A DNA stretch of 22,649 nucleotides from Botryococcus braunii. Its lineage: Eukaryota > Chlorophyta > Trebouxiophyceae. Positions 2,299 through 20,402 of the stretch are shown here, piece by piece (position 1 is the stretch's first letter; the number at the start of each line of letters is the position of its first letter). Position numbers and translations under genes: made by a program. The DNA lies in contig KV908365.1 in the NCBI GenBank assembly GCA_002005505.1, positions 731,687 through 754,335 on the forward strand. The letters run 5' to 3'. Under the pieces are notes generated by a model. It was not told the DNA's origin, searched no databases, and worked only from the letters and a program-made list of their open reading frames with translations.

Positions 2299-2412
2299 AG
2301 TCTTGAGTATCCCTTATCAAGCTTCTGTCCCGTTTGCTTCGTCGTGTTTCGTCCACTTATACAAGCTTCACTTGGGCACAGTTCACTTACTCAGAAGAGT
2401 GTGAGTTACAGG
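2299..2412 (+). repeat. Duplicated LTR unit, first copy (copia 1)
   Basis: This 114-bp unit begins AGTCTTG at the predicted transcription start and ends CAG followed by GTAATT, a good 5' splice site. It differs from the second copy at two positions. A 37-bp spacer ending TGTAACA separates them. Confidence 0.85.
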
Positions 2413-2449
2413 TAATTACAGCATCATTAGATTAGTTGTTATTGTAACA

Positions 2450-2563
2450 AGTCTTGAGTATCCCTTATCAAGCTCCTGTCCCGTTTGCTTGGTCGTGTTT
2501 CGTCCACTTATACAAGCTTCACTTGGGCACAGTTCACTTACTCAGAAGAGTGTGAGTTACAGG
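2450..2563 (+). repeat. Duplicated LTR unit, second copy (copia 1)
   Basis: This is the second copy of the 114-bp unit, offset 151 bp from the first. It has no TATA box 30 bp upstream. It ends CAG|GGATTT, which lacks the GT and would fit a 3' splice site or an exon-exon junction. Confidence 0.85.
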
Positions 2564-2618
2564 GATTTTTATACCAATTCAAATTCTACAAATTCTGTTT
2601 TGATGATGCCATTACGCT

Positions 2619-2806
2619 AAAGAGTGATTCACAGGCTCGCCCTTAATCCCATCCAGGGTCGGATGTACACCGTACTGCCACGGACGTATAGTCGGGCAAC
2701 CGAGCGACTACCTGAGCGAGGTTTTACCGTGAATCTAGATCACATGGCAAGTCATAGAGCAATGCCAAGGACCATACTAGAGCATTATACCCTGGGAAAT
2801 GCTACA
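2619..2806 (-). repeat. Diverged remnant of the 261-bp gypsy LTR
   Basis: The stretch matches the right 190 bp of the LTRs at 6909-7169 and 12678-12938 with many substitutions and small indels. Shared blocks include GGGCAACCGAGCGA, CTACCTGAGCGAGG and CTAGAGCATTATACCCT, and it ends GCTACA at 2806. The R/U5 end is missing, cut off by the copia 1 LTR side. It is an old truncated or solo LTR. Confidence 0.8.
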
Positions 2807-3165
2807 ATCAGGCACGTTAGTGAGTTTAGCATATGATGCCAATTTCCGTGCAAAAAACATGAAACTGCCTCTTTTTCCATTAAACAGAGAAGGAGGGGCA
2901 CCACGCACTTGCACCGGTTTGAGGATCGGTGCTTGGGCTCAGCCTGCCGAGCCTCCAACTTTTGTTCGACTAACGTGTTAATATATTCTTCAATTTCATC
3001 CTTTGACAAGGGGCGTTTCTTCCTTTTGCCTTCCGATCCCTCGGTTGTAGGGGCGATCGGGTTCATGGAATCGACGTCCTCCTCTAACAAATCCGTAACC
3101 TCGAAGCCTTCCCGCAAAGAACCTTCCAAAAGGCTTCGGTCGTCTTCAGAGAGGCTTTTAAACCT
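2807..3165 (-). pseudogene. Gag-like N-terminal fragment of a retroelement, unassigned
   Basis: A minus-strand frame open from about 3165 encodes a charged, helical, lysine/glutamate-rich sequence (LSEDDRSLLEG, EGKRKKRPLSKDEIEEY, NTLVEQKLEARQ). Quality falls off towards 2850. It starts about 110 bp downstream of a primer binding site motif on the same strand (3290 to 3274), the usual position of gag. No capsid motif or zinc knuckle remains, so the family cannot be named. It could instead be a host exon, but the primer site makes a retroelement more likely. The remnant LTR at 2806 cuts it off. Confidence 0.45.
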
Positions 3166-3273
3166 ATCTCATATCACCGAGCTCATCTACGAGGGGCATC
3201 CCAAAGTTAGATCCTTGCATCGGCATGTGCCAACTTCCAACAACTTGATCGAAAACCCCAAAGGATTGATAAC

Positions 3274-3290
3274 GGCTTTCGCCGATACCA
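3274..3290 (-). other. Primer binding site of the element at 2807-3772
   Basis: On the minus strand TGGTATCGGCGAAAGCC follows TTATTACATT. The first 12 bases are identical to the primer sites at 12676, 13355 and 20105. Confidence 0.65.
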
Positions 3291-3292
3291 AA

Positions 3293-3772
3293 TGTAATAA
3301 CTCAGCGGAATTTATAAGGAAGTAAGGCAGGAAGGGGGCAAGGAACGAGGCGCGACACGAGGTCCGTCACTTGGGGCAAGCAAGCGTTTACAAGAACCAC
3401 CCCACCACACAGCTTCCCCTTGTAGTTTCTCCAGTTCTGTCCTCTCGTGTTAATCTACTCGGCACGCGGGCTCCTACCCAGGGGACGCCTATGATTCGAA
3501 CTCGGCCCATGTACGACTTATGTCCCTCTATCCTTCGTGAGAGCCCTAGATCGTCCACTCGTTCGCGTGCTAACGGTGACAACTATTGTCATCAAACACA
3601 CGCATTGACGGAGTGCCAACTATGCATGGCGTAAGCAACCATCACCGACGGAAGGTCCTACTCTCGTTCGAGCGGCTAAGCACGTGGCTCCCACGGGCGT
3701 GCAGTATGGCGCCAAAGGGCGTCTCCCGCAAATGTCCCGAAATGCTCGGAAATCCTCGCATTCCGTTACAGC
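3293..3772 (-). repeat. Probable 5' LTR of a minus-strand element
   Basis: On the minus strand the stretch begins TGTAACGGAATGCG (3772) and ends GAGTTATTACA (3293), two bases before the primer site. TGTAA at one end and TTACA at the other form the expected short inverted termini. The ends resemble those of the element at 6175-6365 (TGTAACG...ATTACA). The outer end is chosen by that motif only, since no second copy is available. No convincing gene lies inside. Confidence 0.45.
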
Positions 3773-4241
3773 ACGGGCCTTAATCTTTCTCCCCCCGCCT
3801 CGTTTCCTACCTATTATTTTTAAGACAGGTCCCACTTGGGCTCTACCACGCAACGTATAAGATATTTCTGGGGCACAGGTGGCATAAAAATTCTCCCAAC
3901 CACACCCCCCCCCCCTTACCCTTTCTCACTGATTTACAACAGGCTCTCACATAGAGTCCTGCCAAACATCCTTGAAGTTCTGCTGTCCAAGGCAGGCGGG
4001 CTCAATCATTCTCCCCTGCCGCTCTCTTCAAACTTTCTCTACATCCCATCACAGCGCCTCAAAACAGACTCTCTCGTAACACATCCTGTAACACAACACA
4101 GCGCCTCAAAACAGACTCCCGTAACACATCCGGCAACACAACACAGAGCCCTGTAACACAACCTCAAAATAGAGCCCTTTAACACAACCCGCAACTGTAG
4201 AACATCCCGGACGTTGCATCGTCTGCAGCAAGGGGCCTCAC
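3773..4241. other. Non-coding stretch, probably AGXT intron plus flank
   Basis: No conserved reading frame is present. Read on the minus strand it follows the 5' splice site at 4241, so part of it is probably intron. It holds a C-run near 3906-3917 and a degenerate tandem repeat at 4052-4195. I searched for the next aminotransferase exon, which should begin by completing a Trp codon, and did not find it. Confidence 0.5.
4052..4195. repeat. Degenerate minisatellite, about 47-bp period
   Basis: CAGCGCCTCAAAACAGACT occurs at 4052 and again at 4099. Around these are several variants of GTAACACA/GTAACACAAC (4076-4185). The repeat creates a Cys-rich shadow frame on the minus strand. Confidence 0.7.
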
Positions 4242-5006
<765 letters not shown>

Positions 5007-5061
5007 TCAATTCTGACAACCTCCACTACACCCTCCACCACATACCTCCTTTCTGACAACG

Positions 5062-5081
5062 ACTAGCTAGCGCTAGCTAGT
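5062..5081. repeat. Perfect 20-bp palindrome
   Basis: ACTAGCTAGCGCTAGCTAGT equals its own reverse complement. It lies 15 bp outside the point where the gypsy pol fragment stops. Confidence 0.9.
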
Positions 5082-5095
5082 GGCCACAACGTCTA

Positions 5096-6365: not shown

Positions 6366-6370
6366 TCTTT
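6366..6370. repeat. Target site duplication TCTTT, left copy
   Basis: TCTTT precedes the solo LTR start at 6371. The right copy is at 13351-13355, directly after the LTR end ACAACA. Confidence 0.8.
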
Positions 6371-6443
6371 TGTTGGAAAATCGGCTGCCGTTGTCCCACC
6401 CCTTTGTCCATTGCCGCCTTCATTTCAACCCAGCTTCTTCATC

Positions 6444-6558
6444 CCTGCAATAAGCTGCAGTCTTAGCAGTCTATGCAGGGAACAGTACCACACATTGATG
6501 AGTCGTACCAAACAAGGACGACTGCTCAAGTACTGGAGTCTGCGAAGCAACAGATCTA
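6444..6558 (-). repeat. Duplicated LTR unit, second copy (solo LTR)
   Basis: This 115-bp unit is identical to 6621-6735. On the minus strand it starts TAGATCTG and ends TTGCAG|GGATGAAG, without GT at the boundary. Confidence 0.9.
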
Positions 6559-6620
6559 TTTACAATGCAAGTGCACTAAAGCGTAACTGCTCTAACTAAG
6601 GAACAACTGATCAAGGGATA

Positions 6621-6735
6621 CCTGCAATAAGCTGCAGTCTTAGCAGTCTATGCAGGGAACAGTACCACACATTGATGAGTCGTACCAAACAAGGACGACT
6701 GCTCAAGTACTGGAGTCTGCGAAGCAACAGATCTA
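6621..6735 (-). repeat. Duplicated LTR unit, first copy (solo LTR)
   Basis: On the minus strand this 115-bp unit begins 31 bp after TATTTAA and ends TTGCAG|GTATCC, a 5' splice-site sequence. The 62-bp spacer that follows (6620-6559) ends TGTAAA. Confidence 0.9.
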
Positions 6736-6759
6736 CCAGAAAATCTGTGATACTATCCC

Positions 6760-6766
6760 TTAAATA
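6760..6766 (-). promoter_or_regulatory. TATA-like box of the solo LTR
   Basis: TATTTAA on the minus strand lies 31 bp upstream of the first unit's start at 6735. Confidence 0.6.
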
Positions 6767-6903
6767 CTGACGCAGGAGGACTTACATAATTTGCCTCCCT
6801 TAGACGTCACCGTCAAGCACTTTATGCACGCAACTCATGCGGAATGTCCTGCTATCCGTGCGAATCCCGTCGTACCATTCAAGCATCGTCAAAAGTGCTG
6901 ACC

Positions 6904-6908
6904 GCTAA
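6904..6908. repeat. Target site duplication GCTAA, left copy
   Basis: GCTAA is adjacent to the gypsy LTR at 6909. Its partner is at 12939-12943, beside the other LTR. Confidence 0.95.
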
Positions 6909-7169
6909 TGTAGACTATAGCTTAGCGGAAGAGGTTTAGAAGGAGACAGTGAGACGTTCGTGGTGTGCAACAAAAGAGTGTTACATGATTGATTCGCAAG
7001 CGTACTCTTAAACCCAGGGTGGATTGAATTATATCGTACTGCCACAGACGCGTGATCGGGCAACCGAGCGAAGTACCTGAGCGAGGTTGTACTGCGAACT
7101 AGATCACAAGGCAAGTCATGCACTATGCCAAGGACCCTACTAGAGCATTATACCCTAGGAAATGCTACA
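6909..7169 (-). repeat. 3' LTR of the gypsy element
   Basis: On the minus strand it runs TGTAGCATTTCC...GTCTACA. TGTAA occurs in its middle (minus strand, about 6990) and could be the poly(A) signal. A short TTTAAG motif lies about 30 bp upstream of it. Confidence 0.95.
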
Positions 7170-7185
7170 TGCCCTCCCCCTTGGC
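7170..7185 (-). other. Polypurine tract of the gypsy element
   Basis: AAGGGGGAGGGCA on the minus strand lies directly before the LTR start TGTAGC. Confidence 0.85.
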
Positions 7186-7927
7186 ATAAGCTATGAGATG
7201 ATGTTTATGGCAATTGGGGCCACAAACGTAAGACAGGAGTATCACGAACCCTGCTTACTGTAACTATAGACAATCACACCTCCTATAGTTACTACATAAC
7301 GCAAGTCAGAGGATGAAATCCACAAGCAAGTTTAGCACGACACAGACGAGGGACTCATCTGCTCAATGCTCGAATACCTTAACATTCTAAGGACTATCGT
7401 CTGCAAGGCGGATCCTCTAACTTAGGGGACGAACTCCCTAGACAGCACTCACACCAGTGATGAAACAATAAGGTTGAGTCATTAGACTAGCACTTGTCCA
7501 AACCTTAGGTCCAGTTACCCTGCTACGCAGTGCAACCTTCGCTTGAGGTGGCTTTCCAACAACGGGCATAAGGCATATTGTCTAGAGCAGCAAGCTAGAC
7601 ACACTAACTGCCACATGTTGTATCTCATGGGTAAGATACCAAAGCAAGTTATTCAAGCACGGAACTACAATTTGCAGCTACACTGCAACAGCAAGTGCAT
7701 CACAAAGTGGAGCCGTGGGTCAAGGAAACATAACCCATGCAAAACATATAACCAAGAGACATGCATGCAAATCCCCAATCACGAATCCCCCTCCCAGACC
7801 CTTCCACCCTCCCTCCCTCCCAAACCCAAGCTGGCTGGCATTGAAGCTCCAAGGGTCATCAGCCGCAAGTGGCTGGAAAAGGCTCAAGCCGCAAATGGCT
7901 TAATCAAGGGATGCCCGCAAGTGGGAC
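7186..7927 (-). other. 3' untranslated region of the gypsy element
   Basis: These 742 bp lie between the chromodomain stop and the polypurine tract. I see no conserved frame on the minus strand. The 161-codon plus-strand frame at 7543-8028 has no recognisable motif and is antisense to the element. Confidence 0.7.
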
Positions 7928-8431
7928 TTAGGAGAAGACAGGGGCAGCTGCCACGTCATCAGCCAGATGGCGAACATGGGCAAGAGGCTCCCAAGTATTC
8001 TCAGTCTCATCGTAGCCTTTCCATTTGACTAAGTAGCGCCAAGACTTTCCAACTCTCTTCTTAGCTATGATGGCCTCCACTTCGTACACGCCGCCACGCC
8101 TGTCTGCATACAAAGGAGGTGGTGAAGTAACGGTCACTGGTACAGATGAAGATACATATGGCTTCAACTGGGAAACATGAAATACAGGATGAATGTTAAC
8201 AGTCTCAGGCAACACAAGCCTAAAAGCTCGAGAACCAACTGCTGCAGCAATCACAAAGGGCCCAAAATACTTAGCTGATAACTTGGACGAGAGCCCAGGT
8301 TCAAGCTAGTTCTTCCTCGCAGCCAGCAAGACCTGGTTCCCCACCTTAAAAGGATGGTCCCGTCTCTTCTTATCCGCGTAAGTCTTCTGCCGTTGCTGTG
8401 CAGAGGCAAGGTTAGATTTGGCACTCTTTAA
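7928..8431 (-). pseudogene. Integrase C-terminal (GPY/F) domain and chromodomain
   Basis: After the integrase break the minus strand reads AKSNLASAQQRQKTYADKK, then KVGNQVLLAARKN, an in-frame TAG (8306-8308), then KLSAKYFGPF (GPY/F module), FHVSQLKPY, and a chromodomain (GVYEVEAIIAKKR, WRYLVKWKGYDETENTWEP). In chromoviruses this tail binds modified histone tails and directs integration. All key aromatic residues of the chromodomain (Y, W, and W in ENTWEP) are present. It is out of frame with the upstream pol reading frame, so it cannot be translated as one protein without suppression. Confidence 0.9.
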
Positions 8432-11108
8432 GGCAGTCTAATATATTCATAAAGGCCTGCCAAAAATGGCTAGTGAACCTAGGATCTCCATCACTCACAA
8501 TTGAGGTAGGCATTCCAAATCTCACAAAGACCCTGTCAATAAATAGTTGTGCAAGCTGGGGTGCAGTGATAGTTTTATTGCATGCAGCCAATACACACAA
8601 CTTAGAAAACCTATCAACAAATACCACAATAGAATCAAACCCACAACAGACAGGTAAATCAGTCACTAAGTCCAGGGAAACGCTCTGCCAAGGTCCATCC
8701 GGAATAGGTAGTGGCTGGAGCAGTCCATAAGGTACAGTTCCCGTCCCTTTAGTGCGCTGGCAGGTGTCACAAGACCTGCAAAAGTCCCTGACTGACGAGT
8801 TGAGCCGTGGCCACCAAAAGTTCCTGCAAACTAAGTCATGCATCTTGTTAATCCCAAGATGTCCAGAAAAGGGGGTGGAATGACACTCTCTCAATACCTT
8901 CTCTCTCATTGCATCAGGGACAAATACTCGACCTGACTGCACATAATAAGGTATAGTGTCTCTCATCACCAAAACACCTTCTTCCACCAGTTTAGTAACT
9001 GTGGGGTCATTAGTACACAGCAAAGCAATTTCTGGTAGGAGGGACGAGACAGAAACAGAGGAGACATGCATTACTGCTAAATCAACACGCCTGGATAAAG
9101 CATCTGCAACAACGTTGTCAGTCCCTTTAACATATTTGATGTCAGGCATGAACCTCATGATCTCAGTAAGCCAACGTTCTTGTCTACTAGTCCTAACAGG
9201 AGCAGTAAGTAAATACTTAAGTGCTTGCTGGTCAGTGTGCACAGTAAACTTAGCCCCTAGCAACAAATGCTTCCACTTCAGTAATGCATGTACCAGGGCA
9301 AGCAATTCTCTATCATAGGGTGCTAACTTCCTTTCAGGGGGTTGGAATTTCCTGGATTCGAAGGCCACGGGCTGCAGTCCCTTCCCTTGATCCTGCTGTA
9401 GTACAGCTCCAACAGCAAATCCTGAGGCGTCTACATGTACAACAAAAGGTTTGTCTAAATCAGGCATCAACAGGCAAGGAGGAGTAGAAACAAGATCTTT
9501 CAGTGCAACAAAGGCTTCCCTCTGGGGTCCCTCCCAGGTCCAAGGCATATCCTTCTTAAGCAACTCAGTCATAGGATAAGCAACATCTGCAAAATGGTCA
9601 ATAAAAGTGTCATAATATTGTGTCAACCCAAGGAACCCTCTCAACTGTGACACATTACAAGGAGTGGGCCAATCCTGAATGGCAGCAACCTTCCTAGGAT
9701 CCACCTTGATCCCACCCGGTGTCAACAGGTGCCCAAGGTATTCCACCTGCTTGGCAGCAAATTCACACTTAGACCTTTTACAATAAAATTTATGTTCCCG
9801 TAACACTGACAAGACAGTTCTTAGATGCTCCATATGTTCTGCAACAGATTTAAAATAAATGAGGATATCGTCTAGGTACACTAGCACAAATCTGTCAAGA
9901 AAGGGAGCCAAGACAGAGTTCATTACAGCCTGAAAGGTGGCAGGAGCATTAGTCAACCCAAAAGGCATCACAGTAAATTCATAATGACCATAACGAGTTT
10001 TAAATGCAGTCTTTTCTATACTGTCTTCATGCATACGTATCTGATGATACCCAGAAGCCAGATCAAGTTTAGAAAAGATACAACTGCCATGAAGTTGTTC
10101 AAACATCTCATCAATTCTAGGCAATGGGTGCTGGTTCCTAACAGTAATCCTATTCAAGGCTCTATAGTCAATGCACAAACGCCAGCCACCATCTTTCTTT
10201 GGGACAAATAAGATAGGTGCACCAAAAGGGGATGTTGATGGGCGGATGAAGCCTCGCTCCAGGAGCTCTTGTAACTGCGCACGAAGTTCAGCCAGCTGAG
10301 CTCCGGACAGTGGGTAAATACGAGAGACTGGAGGAGTTGCCTCCGGCTCCAATCTGATATGGTGGTCTCCAGCACGAGTAGGGGGTAGGCCTTCAGGAAG
10401 TCCAGATAAAACATCTTGAAACTCCTGCAAAAGCTCCTCCAACTCTGGCACATTATATGCATCGGTATCTGGACTGTCAGTCACTGCATTTAATTGAACA
10501 ACATAGATTGATTCACCCAACTTCACCATCTCCTCTACTTCCATAGAAGAAATCACATATTCTGGCATGCCTGACCTCTGACACCCCAAAAGTACATGTG
10601 TTTGATCAGCATGAACCAAGGACACAGCATTCAATTTCCAATTTACAACTGGGTTAAAAGCAGTAAGCCAAGGTTTGCCCAAGACAAGATCATAATAAGT
10701 CAACTCAGTAGGGAGGCAGGTGACTCTAAAACCCAATGTCCCAACAGTCAGGTCAGTTGACACACTATGTCCTACCATAGATGTTCTGCCATCAGCTACT
10801 CTCACAGTAACATGTGAACTCATAGATTCAGTGGGAAGGGCAAGGTCATGCACAAGTTTATCATCAATAAAATTTGCAGAAGCTCCACTGTCTAACAAAA
10901 TCCTGACAGTCCTACCAGCAAGAGTTCCCTCAAACTCAATACAAGTACCAGAAAGATCAAGACCATCCACAATGTGTCTACTGTCAAGCTGAACAAAAGA
11001 GTCAAAACAGGTTGCAGGCAGTGGCTTCTTCTTCTCACCGAGACAGCCAGACTGTACCAAACAACTAACAAGGGCAAGCCTGTATGGGAATTGCAATGGG
11101 GTGTGCAC
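8412..11108 (-). CDS. Ty3/gypsy pol: protease, RT, RNase H, truncated integrase
   Basis: The open frame spans 898 codons; the true start lies upstream in another frame, so the first codons are nominal. Protease: ILLDSGASANFID (Asp73). RT: FSKLDLASGYHQI (Asp349) and YLDD (411-414). RNase H: VVHVDASG (Asp560), Glu601, HTDQQ (Asp626), VADALSR (Asp669). Integrase: zinc finger with HSTPFSGH (743-750) and CRSCDTC, then SLDLVTDLP (Asp813) and VSDGDPRFTSHFW (Asp873). The frame then ends in LKECQI, and the region that should carry the catalytic Glu is missing. RT and RNase H look complete. Confidence 0.95.
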   Translation of the reverse strand: MHTPLQFPYRLALVSCLVQSGCLGEKKKPLPATCFDSFVQLDSRHIVDGLDLSGTCIEFEGTLAGRTVRILLDSGASANFIDDKLVHDLALPTESMSSHVTVRVADGRTSMVGHSVSTDLTVGTLGFRVTCLPTELTYYDLVLGKPWLTAFNPVVNWKLNAVSLVHADQTHVLLGCQRSGMPEYVISSMEVEEMVKLGESIYVVQLNAVTDSPDTDAYNVPELEELLQEFQDVLSGLPEGLPPTRAGDHHIRLEPEATPPVSRIYPLSGAQLAELRAQLQELLERGFIRPSTSPFGAPILFVPKKDGGWRLCIDYRALNRITVRNQHPLPRIDEMFEQLHGSCIFSKLDLASGYHQIRMHEDSIEKTAFKTRYGHYEFTVMPFGLTNAPATFQAVMNSVLAPFLDRFVLVYLDDILIYFKSVAEHMEHLRTVLSVLREHKFYCKRSKCEFAAKQVEYLGHLLTPGGIKVDPRKVAAIQDWPTPCNVSQLRGFLGLTQYYDTFIDHFADVAYPMTELLKKDMPWTWEGPQREAFVALKDLVSTPPCLLMPDLDKPFVVHVDASGFAVGAVLQQDQGKGLQPVAFESRKFQPPERKLAPYDRELLALVHALLKWKHLLLGAKFTVHTDQQALKYLLTAPVRTSRQERWLTEIMRFMPDIKYVKGTDNVVADALSRRVDLAVMHVSSVSVSSLLPEIALLCTNDPTVTKLVEEGVLVMRDTIPYYVQSGRVFVPDAMREKVLRECHSTPFSGHLGINKMHDLVCRNFWWPRLNSSVRDFCRSCDTCQRTKGTGTVPYGLLQPLPIPDGPWQSVSLDLVTDLPVCCGFDSIVVFVDRFSKLCVLAACNKTITAPQLAQLFIDRVFVRFGMPTSIVSDGDPRFTSHFWQAFMNILDCLKECQI

Positions 11109-11542
11109 ATAGTGGTGGAAGATAAACCCAATGCAGCCAAAACAGAAGCCGAGAGTAGTAATTCATGTGACTGCTGTGAAGTAGTCCCTTCCAGCACCTG
11201 CTCACAATGGCTTTGACAAGAGAGCACAGTCAATCTTGTTCCTGGCAACAACTGTGACACAAGCTGGCTGACAGAATCCTCTCTATCACTACTATCAACA
11301 AACAAAACAACATGAGCATCACTATCAATAAGGTGAGGAGCTGCATCTCTCTTAAACATGCTCTCAGGACTGATCAGGTCACTGGCAGAGGGGGATGTCT
11401 GAAACTCTCTACACAAACCATGCCCACCTACAATATGGGTCATGAAATTATGGTAACAACTGTGGAAATAATTCTGCAGATGACCAAGCTCATACAAAAC
11501 AGGAATACCATACTGGGGCTCTGAACAGTTGGCTGGCATCAT
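11109..11542 (-). CDS. Spacer frame between gag and protease of the gypsy element
   Basis: A minus-strand frame open from 11542 overlaps the protease frame and probably codes down to about 11110. It has an ordinary, hydrophilic composition (HLIDSDAHVVLFVDSSDRED) and no named domain. It lies between the gag stop at 11586 and the protease frame, so a frame change near 11110-11150 is needed to join them. It may be a natural linker or the trace of one indel. Confidence 0.45.
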
Positions 11543-11585
11543 AAACAGGACTCACACTGCTGTTTTACCAAAGAAGACCAACAAA

Positions 11586-12612
11586 TCAAGTAGTACTTGA
11601 CTTGCGCTTGGGTTGTCTGAGCTCTGGATGCAATTTCCAGCAACGCTCTGCTGCGTGTCCTGACTTGCCACAATGTGCGCAGGGCTGCGCAGAAGTTTTT
11701 GTCGGGCCTGGTGACTTGGAGTCAGGGGAGAACTTTGGAGCAGGGTTCACAGGCTTAGACGGTCCTGGGAGGTCTGATATTGTCACAGCATGCTTGAAGT
11801 AGTCTTCCAAGGTCTGGGGATACTGTAGGGAGATGCTTTTCTGAAGATCAGCCCTGCAGCCAGCCAAAAATAAGTGACACAAAGTCTCTTCTGCAAATGC
11901 CTTTGGAACCTTTGACCTCAATGCATTAAATGTTGCAATATAGCTTCGCATGTCAGTCTTTCCCTGTGAGAGACTCAGCAACTGCTCTAAATGCCTCTTA
12001 TGCAGCTCTACAGGCCTAAAAGCAGCAGTAAGTGCAGTCACAAACGATTCCCACGTCCCATAAGCAGCAAGACTCCCTGAAGCAATTAACTTAAACTGCC
12101 CAGTCCACCAATCCAACGCTAGAACGTCGTAGCCACCTCCACCGAGCGGATGCCAAGCCTACATCGTAGGTCCCCAAACACATTTCAGTCTGCATAAGCC
12201 ATGGATCCAACTTCATTGGATCTCCCTCGAATACAGATGGGTATGGCAACTTGAGCGAGGGCTTCCCTGAACCTGACGAGGCTGTAGCCGATGCCGGAAT
12301 CGCCGTTGGTATGGGCTGCGGCACGACCACAGATGCAGGTTGCGCGAGAGAGCACTGAATTAACATCTCAAGTCCCTTTGAAATGCTCTGAGCGGTATCA
12401 ACTGGAGGGGAATGCGACGGAACACTAGATCCTAATGCAACGGCTCCTTCGAGCAGGGCACCGATATCTACCACACGCCTAAGCATACAACGAAGATCTA
12501 CCCATGAACGATCTACATATACATAAGCAAGAAGATCTATGGATGGATCTGGCTCTGCGATGCCAGGACTCGGTGCACGGACCCTCGAACTCGAACAAGG
12601 ATGCCGAGACAT
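11586..12612 (-). pseudogene. Gag of the gypsy element, frameshifted
   Basis: Frame 1 starts at ATG 12612, 48 bp after the primer site, and carries the capsid N-terminal part (LPYPSVFEGDPMKLDPWLMQ). Frame 2 (12116-11586) carries the capsid continuation (DWWTGQFKLI, GTWESFVTALTAAFRP, LLSLSQGKTDMRSYIATFN) and a CCHC zinc knuckle CAHCGKSGHAAERC that binds RNA. The frames switch between about 12165 and 12116. Given the identical LTRs, this shift either arose very recently or was already present in the copied RNA. Confidence 0.88.
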
Positions 12613-12659
12613 CACAATCACGAAAGAAACGCACCACGAACGAACGACAAGGAACTAAT

Positions 12660-12676
12660 CCTTGTCGCCGATACCA
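12660..12676 (-). other. Primer binding site of the gypsy element
   Basis: TGGTATCGGCGACAAGG on the minus strand starts one base after the 5' LTR end GTCTACA. It would pair with the 3' end of a tRNA ending TCGCCGATACCA. Confidence 0.85.
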
Positions 12677-12677
12677 C

Positions 12678-12938
12678 TGTAGACTATAGCTTAGCGGAAG
12701 AGGTTTAGAAGGAGACAGTGAGACGTTCGTGGTGTGCAACAAAAGAGTGTTACATGATTGATTCGCAAGCGTACTCTTAAACCCAGGGTGGATTGAATTA
12801 TATCGTACTGCCACAGACGCGTGATCGGGCAACCGAGCGAAGTACCTGAGCGAGGTTGTACTGCGAACTAGATCACAAGGCAAGTCATGCACTATGCCAA
12901 GGACCCTACTAGAGCATTATACCCTAGGAAATGCTACA
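12678..12938 (-). repeat. 5' LTR of the gypsy element
   Basis: This 261-bp LTR is identical on reading to 6909-7169. The outer flank is the target duplication GCTAA (12939-12943). Confidence 0.95.
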
Positions 12939-12943
12939 GCTAA
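12939..12943. repeat. Target site duplication GCTAA, right copy
   Basis: This is the partner of 6904-6908. Confidence 0.95.
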
Positions 12944-13350
12944 GACGGATTACCGCATCCGACCAGCCCTCGAATGGCCTTAACGACTCGATCAATGCAA
13001 ATGACGTCCGTAGGACTACTCAGAGTCTGGAACGAACACTAAGGTAGCAGTAGGTGCCTAAGATGGTCCGGATACAACACCAGTTGGACTTACTTGCCTG
13101 AATCTACCCGTTAGCACCTTAACCAGTGTCCGAATCATCCGAATCAGTCCGTAAACAACCCTATATACACTAAGATAGGGTTTACAGGTACCACGTACCT
13201 CCATATATGTCTCATGAGTGACACCTGACTCAGGTCAGTGACCATTATGTTTGCACCAGTCACGTCACTTCACAAATACACACAATCACAGTGGGAATTT
13301 CCCAACTTAGAAATTCACCACTGAGCCCCAAGGGGGCCCATTTTACAACA
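12944..13350 (-). mobile_element. Solo LTR, right part (start of its U3)
   Basis: This continues the LTR interrupted at 6908. It starts TGTTGTAAAATGG on the minus strand at 13350, next to the TCTTT duplication. It carries short repeated motifs (GATTCGGA twice) and no coding frame. Confidence 0.8.
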
Positions 13351-13355
13351 TCTTT
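13351..13355. repeat. Target site duplication TCTTT, right copy
   Basis: This is the partner of 6366-6370. It overlaps the first base of the primer site of the invaded element. Confidence 0.8.
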
Positions 13356-14243: not shown

Positions 14244-14257
14244 CCTCCCCTCATGTG
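14244..14257 (-). other. Polypurine tract of copia 2
   Basis: CACATGAGGGGAGG on the minus strand directly precedes TGTTGG, as in copia 1 and copia 3. Confidence 0.85.
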
Positions 14258-14524: not shown

Positions 14525-16234
14525 TCATTTCATTCCTGCCATCTCCCTGAACTTAACAAATGAGGATTTTGGTAGAATTTTGGTGAACATATCAGCAACA
14601 TTTTCTGATGTGTGGATGTATTGAGGATTAATGTTCCCCTTGACCACTTCACCCCTGACTCTGTGATAGCGGACTCCAATGTGCTTTGTCCTGGGTGAAA
14701 TGGGTATGCCTCTAATGTTGGCCAGGGCTCCAGTATTATCTGAGAGTATGACTGCAGCTCCCAGATCCTCTCCAACATCCTGCACCAACTTGGACAGCCA
14801 AAGTGCCTCCTGGACACCAGTGCTCATTGCTATGAATTCAGCCTCAACAGTTGACAGGGCAGCCAGCTTTTGGAGTTTGCTACCCCAAGAGATAGCCGTG
14901 CCATCAGACAGGAAGATAAAACCAGAGGTGGATCTGTACCCATCCAGATCCCCTGCAAAGTCTGAATCAACATATCCAATGATCCCTCCCTTGCTCCTTT
15001 CCCATTTGAGACCTAACTCCTTGGTCCCTGACAGATACTGGAGCAGATGAATCCCAGCCCCCCAGTGAATAGAAGTCGGGGAGTTTGAGAATCTTGCTAG
15101 GAGAGAAGCAGAGTAGGAAATGTCTGGTCTGGTAGTGTTTGACAAGTAAAGAACACCCCCAACCAGTTCCCTATATCTGTTGTTTTGGGGAAGTGGTTTG
15201 CCTTCTCCCTTTTTGAGTTTCATTGATCTATCGAGGGGAGTAGATTTGGGCTTGTCCCCTTTTAAATCAAAACTCTCAAGCATGTCACTGATCAATTTCT
15301 CATTTGAGAGTGTAATTGACAACAAAGCACCATTTGCATCTCTCTCTTGTTTTATTTGCATGCCTAGAAAGTGTTTTGCCTCCCCTAAGTCCTTTATGCT
15401 GAAATGACTGGACATAAGTGATTTGACTTCTGTTATGACAGACATGCTCTGTGATAGTAATAGTATGTCATCAACATACAGCAGAAGATAGACTACAGAC
15501 CCCTCTGACTTGTTCAGGATGAATAGGGATGGATCAGCATCTGAGATAGTAAAACCTGAACTCACAAGGACATGACTGATAGTGTCATACCAAGCCTTGG
15601 GCGCCTGCTTGAGCCCATAGAGGGCCTTGTGCAGCTTGCAAACAGTATTGGGTCCACCTACATGAAAACCCTCTGGTTGCTGCACATAAATTTCCTCTGC
15701 TAATTTCCCATGTAGGAAGGCTGTGCTGACATCCATCTGATGCACATGCATGTCCCTGTTCACAGCCTTCGCCAACAGGTACCTTAGTGTGGTATGTTTA
15801 GACACAGGGGCATCGACTTCAGTGTAATCTATGCCATATATCTGTTTGAAACCCTTGGCTACCAGTCTTGCTTTAAATCTATCCACCTCCCCTGTTTCAG
15901 TGAGCTTTATTTTGTAAACCCATTTGACAGGGAGGGCCTTTTTGCGTTGTGCATCTGAAACTTCCACATATGTCCAGGTGCCAAGAGCAGAGAGAGACTG
16001 CATTTCATCTTTCATGGCATCCAACCATTTTTCAGCTTCAGGGGAGTTGATAGCTTGAAAGTAAGTGACAGGTTCAACATATATTGTGTCTTTTTGGACT
16101 TGAACATATCCAAGGAAAGAGGTTTGGGTTTCTGTAGTGTGTGCACCAGACCACCAGGGATGTGTTTCTGCATTTTTCCTATTCCTAACTGGATACTTAC
16201 TGCTGAAACCACCTGCTGGAGGCTTAGGGACCAC
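14525..16234 (-). CDS. Copia 2 reverse transcriptase-RNase H (569 codons)
   Basis: The frame is intact. It covers the end of the integrase linker (residues 1-90), RVT_2 ([10 protein letters not shown] about 101, [24 protein letters not shown] about 167, LHKALYGLKQAPKAWY 201, YVDD 253-256) and RNase H (VDSDFAGDLDGYRSTSGF, VEAEF, LSDNTGAL, ADMFTK), ending FREMAGMK. It begins inside the end of the gag-integrase frame, overlapping it by 11 nt in the +1 frame. The nominal start is GTG, so normal expression needs a frameshift. At residue 141 the usual aromatic of TEVYAPV is Asp; the sister copy at 21163 keeps Tyr. That may impair this copy. Confidence 0.95.
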   Translation of the reverse strand: MVPKPPAGGFSSKYPVRNRKNAETHPWWSGAHTTETQTSFLGYVQVQKDTIYVEPVTYFQAINSPEAEKWLDAMKDEMQSLSALGTWTYVEVSDAQRKKALPVKWVYKIKLTETGEVDRFKARLVAKGFKQIYGIDYTEVDAPVSKHTTLRYLLAKAVNRDMHVHQMDVSTAFLHGKLAEEIYVQQPEGFHVGGPNTVCKLHKALYGLKQAPKAWYDTISHVLVSSGFTISDADPSLFILNKSEGSVVYLLLYVDDILLLSQSMSVITEVKSLMSSHFSIKDLGEAKHFLGMQIKQERDANGALLSITLSNEKLISDMLESFDLKGDKPKSTPLDRSMKLKKGEGKPLPQNNRYRELVGGVLYLSNTTRPDISYSASLLARFSNSPTSIHWGAGIHLLQYLSGTKELGLKWERSKGGIIGYVDSDFAGDLDGYRSTSGFIFLSDGTAISWGSKLQKLAALSTVEAEFIAMSTGVQEALWLSKLVQDVGEDLGAAVILSDNTGALANIRGIPISPRTKHIGVRYHRVRGEVVKGNINPQYIHTSENVADMFTKILPKSSFVKFREMAGMK

Positions 16235-19200
16235 TCTGGTCTACTCCAGGTTCTAATTGGGGGTCTGGGACACTCCCCCCACTCATTTCATGGATAGCCG
16301 CTTGTGGAACACCCTTAAGTGGGCGCGGACTTGCAGCACTTGTGTAACAGGGTTCTGGACCTAAAGCGTCCGTACTTCCCGCGGCTGCACTTTTACCATG
16401 CTTAGTCCCACTAGGATCAAGACCAAAGTGGTCCTGATCCTTTCCCGTTTGCTCTCCAGCACTAACTAGTGTAGTACCCTGATCTAGCTCTAAGCTAATT
16501 TCTGGGATATCTAATGCAAAAGAGACATCAGGCATTTGCTCAGTGGTATCACCATCATCAGAATGACCATCTTCTGAGTCAGAATCAGAGACACTCACTA
16601 GTGATGGGCAAGTGTCATCCTCATCGTCTTCAGCCAGTGCTTCAGGCAGATCATGAACAGCATGTTCAGAGAATTTGACATATTCTCTGCAGTAAACATC
16701 AATCTTTCCATCAACAAGAACTTTGTAGTTCTTGCTAAGGCCATCATAACCTACAAAGATACCCTCAGCACTGACAGGCTCAAATTTCCCTCCCCTCTTT
16801 GACTTAGGAAGAAGGAGAAAACATTTGGAGCCAAAGATTCTGAGATGTGAAACATTGGGAGCCTTTCCATGCATCATTTCAAATGGGGTTTTGCTCAAGT
16901 GCTTAACAGGAGACATATTTCTAACATAATTTGAAGTAAGAAGAGCTTCACCCCAGTTTTCAGATGATAAACCTGAGGCAGCTAGCAAACACCTTGCTTT
17001 CTCCTGTAGCGTACGGTTGAGCCTCTCTATTTTCCCATTCTGCTGATGTGCATATGGGGCAGTCTTCTGGTGAACTGCCCCATGCTCCCTACAGAATTTG
17101 AACAACCCATTGAACTCAGTACCATTATCTGTTCTGATAAATTGTACTTTACAGTCTTGCTGGTTTTGCAAAGCTGTGAGAATGTATGTAGCTTCTTTTG
17201 CTGCATCACTCTTAGATTTAATCAGAACAACAAATGAGTACTCTGTGAACTCATCCAAAATGACAAGGGCATACTTGTATCCTTCAGGAGTTTCAGGATC
17301 TATGGGGCCCATAAGGTCCATGTGAATGACTTCAAGAGGTTTTGAACAAGTATTTTGGGTTGATTTAAATGGTGAGGCTGTCTGCCTCCCATGCATACAG
17401 GCATCGCAAGTACCTTGATGACCAATGCACTTGGATAGGTCACCTGATGGGAGTTTTAAGCCTTCTACCATTTTCTCCCTGCTCAACCTTTGCAAGTTTT
17501 GAGCAGAGAGATGACCAAAACGCTGATGCCATATGTTTACCAGATCTACATCCACCTTTGTATGGTTGCACTGTGTCTTTTCATTTGACACTGGTAGGGG
17601 AACACTGTTTTGTATAGAAAGGTCTGTGAGCCACTGATAAGGGTATACATGTTCAGCAATGCCCACAAGATCACCATTTGAATCTGTAAGGTGACAGTGA
17701 ATGCCATTTATATGAACATCTAACCCATCATGATAGGCCTTCCCTACAGACAATAAACGCTTTTTAGCTGAGGGTACATGTTTAACATTGTACAGGTAAA
17801 GAGAGTTTCCTGTTTCCAGGAAGACCTGCACAGTACCCTCACCAATGATTTCCTCCCTACCACCAATTGCTACTATCAAGATATCTGGTTTATCATACTT
17901 GAGATAATTCATCATATTCTCACAGTCAGGGGAAATATGATCTGTTGAACCAGAATCTATCAGCCAACCAGAAATAGAGGGTTCAGAGCAAACTGTATAT
18001 AGCTGTGTGCAGTGGCTCTGCTTTAGTGGAGAAGCAAAGCTAACTCTCTTCCCCTCCAACTTTGGGCAGGTCTCTATGCTGTGTCCATCCTGCTTGCAGT
18101 ACCTGCAAAATGGTAAAGGCCTCCCTATCTGTTGGAAGGCTGTTTTACCACTCTGCCCACCACCACCTTGATTAGCACCTTTCTCTACAGCATTTGAAGT
18201 AGGGGAATTTGGTGCCTTATACTTAAGGTTGTAACCTTGACCAGCAGAGGACTTCTGGTTAAAGGTGTTATTTTTAGGTGGTGGGGTTTGGAGTCTCTTA
18301 TTCACTATCTGCATATGTGCCAGCTCTAAAGAGTGTTGTAGAAGATTTACATCAGGATTGGACACTATAATAGATTGTTGAACCTGCTTATGTATATTAT
18401 ACTCCTCAGGGAGTCCATTTAAAAGCATAGTGCAGAGTGAGAGGTCACTGAACTCATGTCCTAAGCTTTTAATTGTGTTGGCTATTTTTCTACCCCTTAG
18501 TACATATGAGGAAGGTTTCTCATTTGTATGCATCTTGAAGGTGCGGGACTCTTCCTGGAGAGATATGATTTTGCCATTTGCTTTTGTAGCAAATAAGGCC
18601 ATCAAGTAGTCCCACATAGAGTAGGCAGACAAATGATCAGAGATTTGTATTTGATACTCCTCTGAACAAGACTGTGTTATAATGCTCTGGGCCTTATAAT
18701 CATCTAAATAACCTCTCATGTCATGAAGAATACAGTATTCTACCCCCATCTTTATAAGCATTGCATGAACATATCTAGACCATATGACCCAGTTATCATC
18801 ATTAAGTTTAAGGGGCTCTAACTTTGGAGTAAGCCTTTGAGAAGGAGAATTGAACTTCATGAAGGGATACCCACTGTAACCATAGGGGTTGGAATTCACC
18901 ATAGCCCAACTGCCAGGTACACCACTAAACCAGGGAGGGCCTGAGGAAGAACCCCCTGGTGGATTTGGAGGCCAGCCACCACCTCCTGGTGGACCACTAT
19001 AAGGAGGCCCACCACCTGGTGGAGGTGGAGGAGGTGGGGCAGACACTTGTGCCGTTGACTGTGCAGCAGTTCCCTGTGTAGCACTCACACTTTGAACAGT
19101 TGGTGCAATAGAGTTTAAAATTGTAGATGTTGGAAGACTGATTGGCATTGTGCCACCAGTTGCCAAGGGAACATGCACTACTGTAGTACCTGATGCTGTA

Positions 19201-19754
19201 CTTGCCTGATTTATGTTTCCTGAAAGGAGCATAATACCTGTGTGTGGTACACTTGTCATGAATGAGGAAACATTGACTGGTGCACCTGCCAGTGGTGCAC
19301 TAGGTACAGGTAAGTGTGTAGGCCTCACTGGGATCCTGACTGCAGTCCTAGGTATCCCAAACAAAGGGCTTAAGACAGGTCTGGAGGCAGGCAAATTTGT
19401 TTGAAAGCCTAGCACTCTAGAAGACATAGGGGCAGGAGATGCAGCAGCTTGCTGAGCAGGTACAAAGGTACCAAGGTTGTCTCGTCTTGAGAAAGCAGGG
19501 TTTAGAGGTATGTTTTGAGTCTGTGGATCATATCCCCATGCTTCCCATTCTGAGTCTCCCTGTGGTCTTTGTAGACCCTCATCAGTTTGCTGCTGCATTC
19601 CATTTAGGACCCCTGTAACATGTGACACAGAATCATCAGTGACTGCTTCTGCATCATAGGTAGGATTCCTAAAGACATTCCTGCCCATTGGGCTGGCAGG
19701 TTCTATCTCAATACTGACATTGAATCCTTCATCTTGTGATTCTGTCTGTGACAT
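16224..19754 (-). CDS. Copia 2 Gag-protease-integrase polyprotein
   Basis: The start is taken at the first ATG (19754); eight further upstream codons are open. Numbering from the upstream TTG at 19778, the order is: Pro/Gly-rich N-terminus (248-285); Gag capsid region (about 315-495, NDDNWVIWSRYVHAML); CCHC zinc knuckle CRYCKQDGHSIETC (558-571); protease WLIDSGSTDHIS (Asp608); integrase HHCC finger (H751, H756, C791, C794); catalytic Asp821 (HMDLMGP), Asp884 (RTDNGTEF), Glu918 (NGKIERLN); then an acidic, low-complexity tail. All catalytic residues are present with no internal stop. It ends with CCC TAA, 11 nt into the RT frame. Confidence 0.95.
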   Translation of the reverse strand: MSQTESQDEGFNVSIEIEPASPMGRNVFRNPTYDAEAVTDDSVSHVTGVLNGMQQQTDEGLQRPQGDSEWEAWGYDPQTQNIPLNPAFSRRDNLGTFVPAQQAAASPAPMSSRVLGFQTNLPASRPVLSPLFGIPRTAVRIPVRPTHLPVPSAPLAGAPVNVSSFMTSVPHTGIMLLSGNINQASTASGTTVVHVPLATGGTMPISLPTSTILNSIAPTVQSVSATQGTAAQSTAQVSAPPPPPPPGGGPPYSGPPGGGGWPPNPPGGSSSGPPWFSGVPGSWAMVNSNPYGYSGYPFMKFNSPSQRLTPKLEPLKLNDDNWVIWSRYVHAMLIKMGVEYCILHDMRGYLDDYKAQSIITQSCSEEYQIQISDHLSAYSMWDYLMALFATKANGKIISLQEESRTFKMHTNEKPSSYVLRGRKIANTIKSLGHEFSDLSLCTMLLNGLPEEYNIHKQVQQSIIVSNPDVNLLQHSLELAHMQIVNKRLQTPPPKNNTFNQKSSAGQGYNLKYKAPNSPTSNAVEKGANQGGGGQSGKTAFQQIGRPLPFCRYCKQDGHSIETCPKLEGKRVSFASPLKQSHCTQLYTVCSEPSISGWLIDSGSTDHISPDCENMMNYLKYDKPDILIVAIGGREEIIGEGTVQVFLETGNSLYLYNVKHVPSAKKRLLSVGKAYHDGLDVHINGIHCHLTDSNGDLVGIAEHVYPYQWLTDLSIQNSVPLPVSNEKTQCNHTKVDVDLVNIWHQRFGHLSAQNLQRLSREKMVEGLKLPSGDLSKCIGHQGTCDACMHGRQTASPFKSTQNTCSKPLEVIHMDLMGPIDPETPEGYKYALVILDEFTEYSFVVLIKSKSDAAKEATYILTALQNQQDCKVQFIRTDNGTEFNGLFKFCREHGAVHQKTAPYAHQQNGKIERLNRTLQEKARCLLAASGLSSENWGEALLTSNYVRNMSPVKHLSKTPFEMMHGKAPNVSHLRIFGSKCFLLLPKSKRGGKFEPVSAEGIFVGYDGLSKNYKVLVDGKIDVYCREYVKFSEHAVHDLPEALAEDDEDDTCPSLVSVSDSDSEDGHSDDGDTTEQMPDVSFALDIPEISLELDQGTTLVSAGEQTGKDQDHFGLDPSGTKHGKSAAAGSTDALGPEPCYTSAASPRPLKGVPQAAIHEMSGGSVPDPQLEPGVDQSGP

Positions 19755-20089
19755 TATTCCAGAAGCCTTGACGGGCAACTGGCAAAGAAAGATTAAAAGG
19801 AAAACAAACTTGCTTGCACTTTAAACAGATATTCCACAACCACCAGATCCCAACAGCCAATACATCCAATTGTCTCTCACTACTAGATCAACACAAGTGC
19901 CTTTCCAGCGAGACAATCCAGCAACCCGAAGTTCCAAGCGATCGTTCAACCCAAGACACTACAAACAACTACGTTGAAAGCAGAGAAATGGGCGAGAATT
20001 TCTGGAGACTTGCTGAAGCTTGCAAATAGTTGTATGAGTATTATTCTCCTCGCTGCTGGCGGGAGCAGTGACCAGTATCGACACCAAAC
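19755..20089 (-). other. 5' leader of copia 2
   Basis: These 335 bp lie between primer site and gag ATG. No convincing upstream frame is visible. It is probably leader RNA with packaging signals. Confidence 0.7.
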
Positions 20090-20105
20090 GGTGTCGCCGA
20101 TACCA
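20075..20105 (-). other. Primer binding site of copia 2, within a hairpin
   Basis: TGGTATCGGCGACACC starts at 20105 on the minus strand. GTAT and CGACACC of this site pair with GGTGTCG-ATAC just downstream (loop GTTT, bulge CGG), forming an 11-bp stem between 20103 and 20075. Confidence 0.75.
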
Positions 20106-20151
20106 TATTCGATTATTTGATGTCAATTTGATCAAAAACAGTTTCAGGATT

Positions 20152-20253
20152 CCTGCATAGCAAGCGACAGCTGAGTTAATGCAGGCAAAGGACGGTGCCA
20201 AACGGAAATACAGAGGTCCGACTTGAGGCACCGGAGACAGCAATCGAATGTCT
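20152..20253 (-). repeat. Duplicated LTR unit, second copy (copia 2/3 LTR)
   Basis: This 102-bp unit reads identically to 20301-20402. On the minus strand it starts AGACATTC and ends ATGCAG|GAATCC. Confidence 0.92.
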
Positions 20254-20300
20254 ATTACATATATCAAACTATACAATAAAGCTCGAAACAACTAAACACA

Positions 20301-20402
20301 CCTGCATAGCAAGCGACAGCTGAGTTAATGCAGGCAAAGGACGGTGCCAAACGGAAATACAGAGGTCCGACTTGAGGCACCGGAGACAGCAATCGAATGT
20401 CT
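20301..20402 (-). repeat. Duplicated LTR unit, first copy (copia 2/3 LTR)
   Basis: On the minus strand it starts 30 bp after the TATA-like box and ends ATGCAG|GTGTGT, a 5' splice-site sequence. The 47-bp spacer that follows (20300-20254) ends TGTAAT. Confidence 0.92.

Follow-up and report, generated by a model that had tools for sequence, protein, structure and literature searches.

What makes and maintains the second copy of a unit that occurs twice within one long terminal repeat (LTR)? The question is raised by the window (the whole stretch of 22 649 nucleotides analysed here), in which each of three copia LTRs, called f1, f2 and f3 below, contains a unit of 101–114 nt twice. The first-pass annotation had predicted that the second unit is the reverse-transcribed exon of a spliced leader, re-made in every replication cycle. 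This prediction is supported by exons found joined in a further LTR family of the same genome (f7), by the kinship of the two units and by the joints that precede unit 2.

Repeated units in the LTRs of the window

The relevant features of the window are the following (TATA-like boxes are presumed from the motif; a slash in the motifs below marks a boundary).

1719..2621, + strand: 3' LTR of f1 (copia 1), TGTTGG...GCTAAA; the end base is the same in other copies
2269..2276, +: f1 TATA-like box, 30 nt 5' of unit 1
2299..2411, +: f1 unit 1, predicted leader exon, 113 nt
2412..2562, +: f1 predicted leader intron (GT...CAG), made up of spacer and unit 2; splicing predicted by analogy with f7
2443..2447, +: f1 TGTAA, predicted poly(A) signal, end of spacer
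2448-2449, +: f1 variable joint, CA
2450..2562, +: f1 unit 2, 113 nt
2563..2621, +: f1 U5
6371..6908, − strand: 3' piece of f2 solo LTR (remainder of U3, units, U5)
6445..6558, −: f2 unit 2, 114 nt
6445-6621, −: f2 predicted intron
6559..6621, −: f2 spacer, GT...TGTAAA
6622..6735, −: f2 unit 1, 114 nt
6760..6766, −: f2 TATA-like box, about 31 nt 5' of unit 1
12939..13350, −: 5' piece of the U3 of the f2 solo LTR, severed by a nested gypsy element
14525..19778, −: f3 (copia 2) gag–pol frames, with gag_2, rve integrase, then RVT_2 (copia order)
20092..20105, −: f3 primer-binding site (PBS), TGGTATCGGCGACA
20106..20882, −: f3 LTR, between copia 2 and copia 3
20153..20253, −: f3 unit 2, 101 nt
20153-20301, −: f3 predicted intron
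20254..20301, −: f3 spacer, GT...TGTAAT
20302..20402, −: f3 unit 1, 101 nt
20426..20432, −: f3 TATA-like box, about 30 nt 5' of unit 1

All three duplications lie where the first-pass annotation had placed them. The unit lengths that it gave (114, 115 and 102 nt) hold if the next G is counted; measured to the CAG, they are 113 nt in f1, 114 nt in f2 and 101 nt in f3. The units of the three LTRs have no sequence kinship with one another, and their boundaries are alike: unit 1 ends CAG/GT, the spacer ends with TGTAA plus 1–2 nt and unit 2 ends CAG/G. The bases directly 3' of unit 1 are GT in all three LTRs; those directly 3' of unit 2 are GG in f1 and f2 and GA in f3. Counted from the GT, the spacers are 38 nt (f1), 63 nt (f2) and 48 nt (f3) long, and TGTAA is followed by CA in f1, by A (then TAGATC) in f2 and by T in f3. 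In f1–f5 and f8 the G after unit 2 is not followed by a T, as had been stated; in f6 and f7 unit 2, too, is followed by GT. What we take to be a TATA-like box lies 30–31 nt 5' of unit 1 in each of the three LTRs, as had been noted.

The f2 LTR, described earlier as a solo LTR, is a true one, flanked by the target site duplication (TSD) TCTTT (6366-6370 and 13351-13355), but it is split in two by a nested Ty3/gypsy element (6909-12938, TSD GCTAA); the first five bases of the piece 12939..13350 are the repeat of GCTAA. Copies of f1 continue beyond the shared LTR end either with the PBS TGGTATCGGCGATTAA (5' LTRs) or with unrelated flank. In f3, the frame 16224-19778 carries rve, SH3_retrovirus and gag_2, with RVT_2 in the next frame; integrase is therefore 5' of reverse transcriptase, with copia-type domains, as in Ty1/copia. 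The PBS TGGTATCGGCGA... adjoins the 5' LTRs of f1 and f2 and the f3 LTR.

Spread of the layout and the joined exons of f7

Five further LTR families of the same genome have the layout, bringing the total to eight (f1–f8). In all eight, CAG/GT precedes a spacer of 23–184 nt with TGTAA at its end; judged by sequence only, a predicted splice donor thus lies 5' of a predicted poly(A) signal inside the LTR. As a measure of chance, the frequency of CAGGT over both strands of the longer loci and the window is 0.0012 per point, and that of a TGTAA whose end lies 0–4 nt upstream is 0.006. Both units were spanned by 40 of the 40 scored f1 matches and by 40 of 42 in f3. In f7 the TATA-like box is weak, and f8 has an A after the acceptor, both points against the pattern.

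A blind scan was made for spaced direct repeats of at least 60 nt with a gap of 5–250 in loci of at least 1500 bases, after removal of matches near known families. Five of the 16 repeats listed have the layout, four representing two new families and the fifth a distant f1 relative (L060); one is a decayed f2 relative (L054) and 10 lack the layout. L060 has TGTCAT in place of TGTAA, a further point against. One of the 10 repeats without the layout (in L048) shares the CAG ends and has a gap closed by TGTAA, but it has no GT.

In a survey based on RVT_2, 150 of 2658 candidates were scored and nine were chosen for diversity, not at random. Seven of the nine reached an LTR, and all seven have the layout: C355 and C389 (f4), C500 (f7), C448 (f5), C364 and C94 (f1) and C212 (f8). 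Candidate C330 has a gag-like coding sequence and no LTR in its stretch; the f1-like U3 of C402 stops after about 188 bp, before the units. The PBS 14-mer TGGTATCGGCGACA, with 347 sites, was dropped as an anchor for a copia survey. The 80 loci read are the first 100 sites less 12 already assigned to f2 or f3, the gypsy site of the window and the seven at the end of the list. They form three clusters with LTR ends like those of the window's gypsy LTR, as judged from the LTRs, and were therefore used as a comparison group only. None of these 80 gypsy-type loci has the unit–spacer–unit layout upstream of the PBS. No relatives were found in viral contigs.

Family f7, which lies outside the window, differs in the structure of its units. 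In locus L162, unit 1 consists of exons A (142 nt), B (71 nt) and C (76 nt) separated by two introns, both cut at GT...AG (ATATCG/GTAAGG...GCAG/G and GCAGCG/GTAAGA...ACAG/G). Unit 2 is A–B–C joined, with each exon 100% identical to that in unit 1. The joined form occurs in all 40 scored f7 copies (of 105 candidates); separate matches to exon A alone number 39 among the matches listed. Since unit 2 lacks both introns, it is a DNA copy of a spliced RNA, and the elements were likely copied from spliced RNA; the 40 scored copies speak against an f7 LTR copied from an unspliced leader. The joined A–B–C is, at the level of sequence, the decisive find for the spliced-copy reading. Exon joining is present in f7 DNA, and splicing in the other families is predicted by analogy with it.

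Predicted replication cycle and its alternatives

In these copia LTRs unit 2 is a copy of unit 1, and in f7 an exon-joined copy. We consider it very probable that every round of reverse transcription makes this copy anew, with a predicted spliced leader as template and with transfer of the strong-stop DNA to an RNA 3' end predicted to lie a few bases inside unit 2. The TATA spacing and the variable joint suggest the first base of unit 1 as the start of transcription. The leader of the 5' LTR would be spliced from CAG/GT to the CAG ending unit 2, with loss of the spacer, the poly(A) signal and unit 2 itself; the CAG at the unit end would act as donor flank in unit 1 and as acceptor in unit 2. 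In the 3' LTR, cleavage of the RNA directly behind TGTAA would precede synthesis of the acceptor; the 3' copy could therefore not splice this intron, and the RNA would end with U3–unit 1–spacer–first bases of unit 2. These few bases would serve as a very short R to which the strong-stop DNA (U5 and leader exon) anneals, and extension would yield U3–unit 1–spacer–unit–U5. The parent's unit 2 would not be passed on, and each round would copy unit 1 into unit 2. It is also likely that this copia group, in what is probably a chlorophyte alga, replicates via obligate splicing. Its LTR intron would survive with the spacer half coming from the unspliced 3' end and the unit 2 half cast anew from the leader exon, the same exons and introns being spliced at one RNA end and kept at the other. 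That the inner introns of f7 must be treated in these two ways counts against the cycle.

Transfer of the strong-stop DNA onto the longer match in unit 1 would yield U3–unit–U5, the form seen in single-unit f2 LTRs. There are 24 two-unit and six single-unit LTRs among the 30 f2 loci fetched, so the forms lacking the duplication, which at equal abundance had been named as evidence against the model, are fewer in f2; four further f2 matches, seen as matches only, also end at unit 1. On the f2 tree the single-unit LTRs occupy four positions. Both LTRs are single-unit in each of the two elements with pairs that were read (C443 and C57), which is what an occasional transfer onto unit 1 would produce. 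Single-unit f2 elements, some with intact LTR pairs, are also listed against the cycle.

In four families the closest match of a unit 2 is the unit 1 within the same LTR. Mean distances, and the number of 20 000 permutations as low as the observed same-LTR distance, are as follows.

f1 (30 LTRs): unit 1–unit 2, same LTR 0.0029, other LTRs 0.0090; unit 1–unit 1, 0.0084; permutations, 0
f2 (22 LTRs): unit 1–unit 2, same LTR 0.0164, other LTRs 0.0325; unit 1–unit 1, 0.0325; permutations, 0
f3 (21 LTRs): unit 1–unit 2, same LTR 0.0037, other LTRs 0.0065; unit 1–unit 1, 0.0055; permutations, 0
f7 (6 LTRs): unit 1–unit 2, same LTR 0.0046, other LTRs 0.0593; unit 1–unit 1, 0.0607; permutations, 54

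In the six f7 LTRs, 28 of the 36 variable unit positions, including two deletions, change identically in both units; seven of the other eight are private to one unit of one LTR. Two results argue against the cycle: of 11 unit alleles common to at least two elements in f1–f3, only four are in both units of every carrier, and the unit 1s of f1 and f3 are slightly closer to one another than to other unit 2s.

The joint between spacer and unit 2 is hypervariable between elements in f1 and f7. Across the 423 columns of 29 f1 copies, diversity is highest at the joint base, and the f1 joints mostly vary by a replaced base at the same length. In f7 there are 13 different strings of 1–5 nt among 48 matches, one of them, in C295, with extra As; the joint between U3 and unit 1 is fixed there (60 matches, a single length, base −1 a C in 59). 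The whole-genome joint searches accepted only exact unit starts (for f1 and f7, also only an exact TGTAA), so damaged joints could not show up in these figures. Variability in every family is ruled out by f2, with TGTAAA at all 24 two-unit loci, and by f4, where the joint is mostly C (86 of the 100 matches listed out of 431); re-making is therefore not visible in all families. The two LTRs of an element have the same joint in 10 of 11 f1 pairs (2.8 expected by chance; none of 20 000 shuffles) and in six of 10 f7 pairs (1.1 expected; two of 20 000 shuffles). One cDNA should give both LTRs one joint, so the disagreement within four of 10 f7 pairs, one of 11 f1 pairs and an f4 pair at C24 counts against the cycle.

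A variant of the last step, overlapping in probability with the cycle itself, does without R: on reaching the cap end of the spliced leader, reverse transcription would jump to the poly(A) end. The f7 strings of 1–5 nt and the extra As in C295 favour it, but the f1 joints are mostly replacements at one length and those of f2 and f4 are nearly constant. In addition, UGUAA of Chlamydomonas is reported to occupy the near-upstream region, at −28 to −5 relative to the cut (PMC4025486); with that spacing, the cut would fall inside unit 2. We regard the variant as unlikely.

It is very improbable that unit 2 was formed by one ancestral spliced retrocopy, followed by usual replication from unspliced RNA with a long R (unit 1 and spacer). 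A single event would be enough for the joined copy in f7 and agrees with the constant or nearly constant joints of f2 and f4. However, the f7 subfamilies are several per cent apart and still match between their own units, including the two deletions, and in all four families the between-LTR distances of unit 1 to unit 2 approximate those among unit 1s, which would need continuing homogenization. Equally improbable is an origin without splicing, in which gene conversion or unequal crossing over in the genome homogenizes the copies of an ancient tandem duplication in the LTR: it accounts for like units within one LTR and for single-unit LTRs, but it makes no exon-joined A–B–C with introns cut at GT...AG, leaves unaccounted for both the CAG/GT, CAG ends and spacer-end TGTAA of eight families and an f7 joint that varies before unit 2 while the bases before unit 1 are constant, and, if chromosomal, would usually turn one LTR of a pair single, not both as in C443 and C57.

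Comparison with known elements

Standard LTRs have the order U3–R–U5, and the RNA that serves as their template carries R at both ends; introns in the template of a retroelement are expected to be lost at reverse transcription. In foamy viruses the acceptors lie downstream in the genome, the LTR has no unit duplication and the genomic RNA is unspliced. The elements described here resemble standard Ty1/copia in having integrase before reverse transcriptase, gag_2 and RVT_2, a tRNA-type PBS adjoining the LTR and near-identical LTR pairs. Unlike them, they have LTRs of the form U3–unit–spacer–unit–U5, the second unit being a spliced copy in f7. Under the cycle proposed here, the intron would be kept through its restoration by reverse transcription itself, and splicing would become an added step of LTR replication.

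A donor 5' of the poly(A) signal in the LTR, predicted here, is shared with foamy viruses: in the prototype foamy virus the donor is in R, and U1 bound to it suppresses the 5' poly(A) site, so that identical sequences behave differently at the two RNA ends (PMC3694450). The acceptor of the present LTRs differs from that of foamy viruses in being the end of a second leader-exon copy, which in f7 is spliced. The same source describes the poly(A) signal of RSV, MMTV and HTLV-1 as located in U3 and the donor of HIV-1 as downstream of the signal; in these viruses too the poly(A) site must serve at the 3' end only (PMC3694450). Unlike these viruses, the present elements are predicted to splice the signal out within an intron that they then restore, which would be a new way for an element to disregard its own 5' poly(A) signal.

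A literature search, with subscription journals mostly outside its coverage, found no described LTR with an intron or made from a spliced template, and none is described in the accessible parts of PMC5542766, PMC12789967, PMC8226300 and PMC5014426. The engineered LTR1 lentiviral vector obtains its LTR product via an altered geometry of reverse transcription that dispenses with the first strand transfer. One version of the vector contains a leader intron, and no rebuilding of an LTR intron is described in the part of that report available (PMC5542766).

If the cycle is correct, each insertion documents in its DNA the splice junctions as well as the first strand transfer, and the joint could be used as a tag of insertion events in the families where it varies. 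An alternatively spliced extra unit was considered for C384 and dropped, a pattern search for such a unit giving no match; this locus has two joints, 238 bp apart.

Duplicated units in the copia LTRs of the window

The window (C31:731687-754335) contains members of three copia LTR families: on the plus strand, the 3' end of an element with its LTR (f1); on the minus strand, a solo LTR interrupted by a Ty3/gypsy element (f2) and two tandem elements with a common LTR (f3).

Window features
6371-13350, minus: f2 solo LTR with its own TSD (TCTTT), outer layer of a two-layer nest with the gypsy element
6909-12938: Ty3/gypsy element inside the f2 solo LTR, 261-bp LTRs, TSD GCTAA
13927-22649, minus: f3 copia elements in tandem, LTRs common to neighbours
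20092-20105: 14-nt primer-binding site (PBS) TGGTATCGGCGACA, common to copia f2 and f3 and to gypsy-type LTRs (loci L081-L160)

Tandem copia elements with common LTRs also occur in f1, as three LTRs in a row on contigs C781 (spacing about 6.69 kb) and C46 (5242 bp).

Each of the three window LTRs carries a unit of 101-114 nt twice, and the units of the three families show no sequence kinship. The first copy (unit 1) ends in CAG|GT in all three and the second (unit 2) in CAG|GG, CAG|GG and CAG|GA in f1, f2 and f3, respectively; the spacer ends in TGTAA plus 1-2 nt, and a TATA-like box is found 30-31 nt upstream. The boundaries proposed in the first-pass annotation are thus confirmed, with unit lengths one base shorter when counted to the splice site. 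Matches extend across both units in 40/40 f1 rows (40 scored of 349 candidates) and in 40/42 f3 rows (40 scored of 78).

Domain order (f3) and PBS (f1-f3) are those of copia; the elements are still copia retrotransposons, and the LTR is the new part. The host is probably a chlorophyte alga. The best 120 of 6459 relatives of the f3 polymerase are mostly unnamed metagenome proteins; the named ones among these 120 include proteins of Haematococcus, Tetradesmus, Volvox africanus and land plants, with one from Amaranthus scoring highest of the named (42% identity). The annotation knew of no described LTR with this layout, and we found none in the open literature on LTR and leader introns, spliced templates and algal copia, although subscription papers might contain one. 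The nearest known system in logic is the R (terminal repeat of the RNA) of foamy viruses.

A spliced second unit and the spread of the layout

In f7, a family found elsewhere in the genome, unit 1 is divided into three exons.

Features of the f7 reference LTR (locus L162, contig C500)
163-304: exon A of unit 1
between A and B: intron 1, 105 nt, starts GTAAGG, ends GCAG
410-480: exon B of unit 1
between B and C: intron 2, 109 nt, starts GTAAGA, ends ACAG
590-665: exon C of unit 1
between exon C and unit 2: spacer, 23 nt, terminal CCATGTAAAT
689-977: unit 2, A, B and C joined, intronless

Each exon is 100% identical to its counterpart in unit 2. Spacer and joined A-B-C are matched throughout in all 40 scored copies (of 105 candidates), for which there are 39 separate matches to exon A only, the missing one falling at a contig start. 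We know of no DNA-level recombination that excises two introns at their splice sites; the joined unit 2 is a copy of spliced RNA. At C384:8969-9232 (minus strand) an f7 LTR has two spacer/unit-2 joints 238 bp apart, which amounts to one additional, shorter unit; searching by pattern for a truncated exon C gave no match.

The layout is present in eight families, chosen by hand, in the one genome examined (176 Mb).

Unit lengths in the eight families
f1: 111-113 nt
f2: 114 nt
f3: 101 nt
f4: 141-142 nt
f5: 142-147 nt (kin to f4, 71.6 and 72.8% over part)
f6: 107-108 nt
f7: 289 nt, three exons
f8: 96 nt

Spacers measure 23-184 nt. In all eight families CAG|GT follows unit 1 (exon C in f7) and unit 2 terminates in CAG, the next base at the f8 acceptor being A, not G. 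TGTAA lies 0-5 nt before unit 2, except in an f1 relative (L060) with TGTCAT. The proposed absence of T after the CAG|G of unit 2 holds for f1-f3 and fails for f6 and f7, where GT follows unit 2 too, so that T cannot distinguish the two unit ends there.

Long fetched loci were also scanned blind for direct repeats separated by a gap, which left 16 rows once those near known families were removed. Four of these represent two new families, one is a distant relative of f1, another a decayed relative of f2, and the other ten depart from the unit-spacer-unit rule. Among nine hand-picked RVT_2 matches, with the LTR region behind each examined, seven were informative (five families) and all seven have the layout. 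It occurs in 0/80 comparison LTRs resembling the gypsy LTR of the window. Genome-wide, joints (the bases between TGTAA and unit 2) number 431 in f4, 48 in f7 and 31 in f1, as exact-pattern matches or lower bounds. With its 431 LTR joints, and dozens of listed RVT_2 matches with identical score and 1805-aa frames, f4 probably represents a large recent burst.

Common ancestry of the units and variation of the joint

Unit distances were compared in 30 f1, 22 f2, 21 f3 and 6 f7 LTRs (f2 excluding the incomplete L052 and L053 and single-unit loci). In all four families a unit resembles its partner in the same LTR more than it does the units of different LTRs, and between-LTR distances are similar for unit 1-unit 2 and unit 1-unit 1 (0.0090/0.0084 in f1, 0.0325/0.0325 in f2, 0.0065/0.0055 in f3, 0.0593/0.0607 in f7). 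Beyond the age of the copy, the two units therefore share all or nearly all of their ancestry. Among 36 variable unit positions in six f7 LTRs, 28 have an identical pattern in both units, including two single-base deletions; seven of the remaining eight vary in just a single unit of a single LTR. The picture from single alleles in f1-f3 is less clean than that from distances. Alleles common to at least two elements number 11; four occupy both units in each element that has them and seven do not, some of these seven (f2 sites 59 and 63) looking recurrent or mixed. Another 57 alleles each occur in a single element, 47 of them in only one of its units and 10 in both. One-unit alleles arise by post-insertion changes.

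The f7 joint takes 13 different forms of 1-5 nt (48 matches); the bases before unit 1 have one length in 60/60 matches, with C at -1 in 59/60. No other of 423 aligned columns (29 copies) is as diverse as the f1 joint (C 10, T 9, A 9, CA 2, none 1; 31 matches). Joints agree in 10/11 f1 and 6/10 f7 presumed LTR pairs (2.8 and 1.1 expected by chance), the pairing of neighbours 4-7.6 kb apart being inferred from distance. We read the variable joint as a mark of first-strand transfer: a base would be added to the end of strong-stop DNA (U5 plus leader exon) at the cap, then carried into the new copy. Untemplated additions are known from Ty1 and retroviruses. Against this reading, the joint is constant in 24/24 two-unit f2 loci, mostly C in f4 (C 86, G 9, T 2 and three others among 100 matches listed of 431) and mostly T in f3 (T 18, A 2; 20 aligned copies), and neighbouring presumed pairs are discordant in five cases in f7 (C14, C162, C427, C764) and f1 (C781) and in one in f4 (C24). 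In f2, f3 and f4 most joints would be copies of the RNA 3' end, as expected with a short R.

Probable replication cycle and single-unit LTRs

PMC4025486 gives UGUAA as the main poly(A) signal in Chlamydomonas, near-upstream at -28 to -5 from the cut; according to PMC1868727, of the algae studied only late-branching chlorophytes use it. With TGTAA at the spacer end, the RNA would end among the initial bases of unit 2; these duplicate the cap-proximal ones and would form a short R. In the 5' LTR the poly(A) signal would lie inside the predicted intron. Replication through a predicted spliced leader, with its strong-stop DNA transferred onto the start of unit 2 by way of this short R, is likely. 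In f7, the RNA would also have to retain introns 1 and 2 in the part transcribed from the 3' LTR; in foamy viruses identical donors can work at one end only, according to PMC3694450.

Six of the 30 fetched f2 loci have a single unit (U3-unit-U5), with the unit-U5 junction exactly as splicing would make it; in four further f2 rows the match stops at unit 1. The single-unit LTRs (L055-L060) are without the spacer TGTAA. Strong-stop DNA transferred onto unit 1 of the 3' LTR would give this structure. In a tree of U3 plus unit 1 (28 of 30 loci; L052 and L053 are too short) the six occupy four places. Starred branches call for two changes or more, and a value as low as the observed one came up in 24 of 500 label shuffles. 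Chromosomal recombination would usually leave the two LTRs of one element unlike; at C443 and C57 both LTRs of the f2 element are single-unit.
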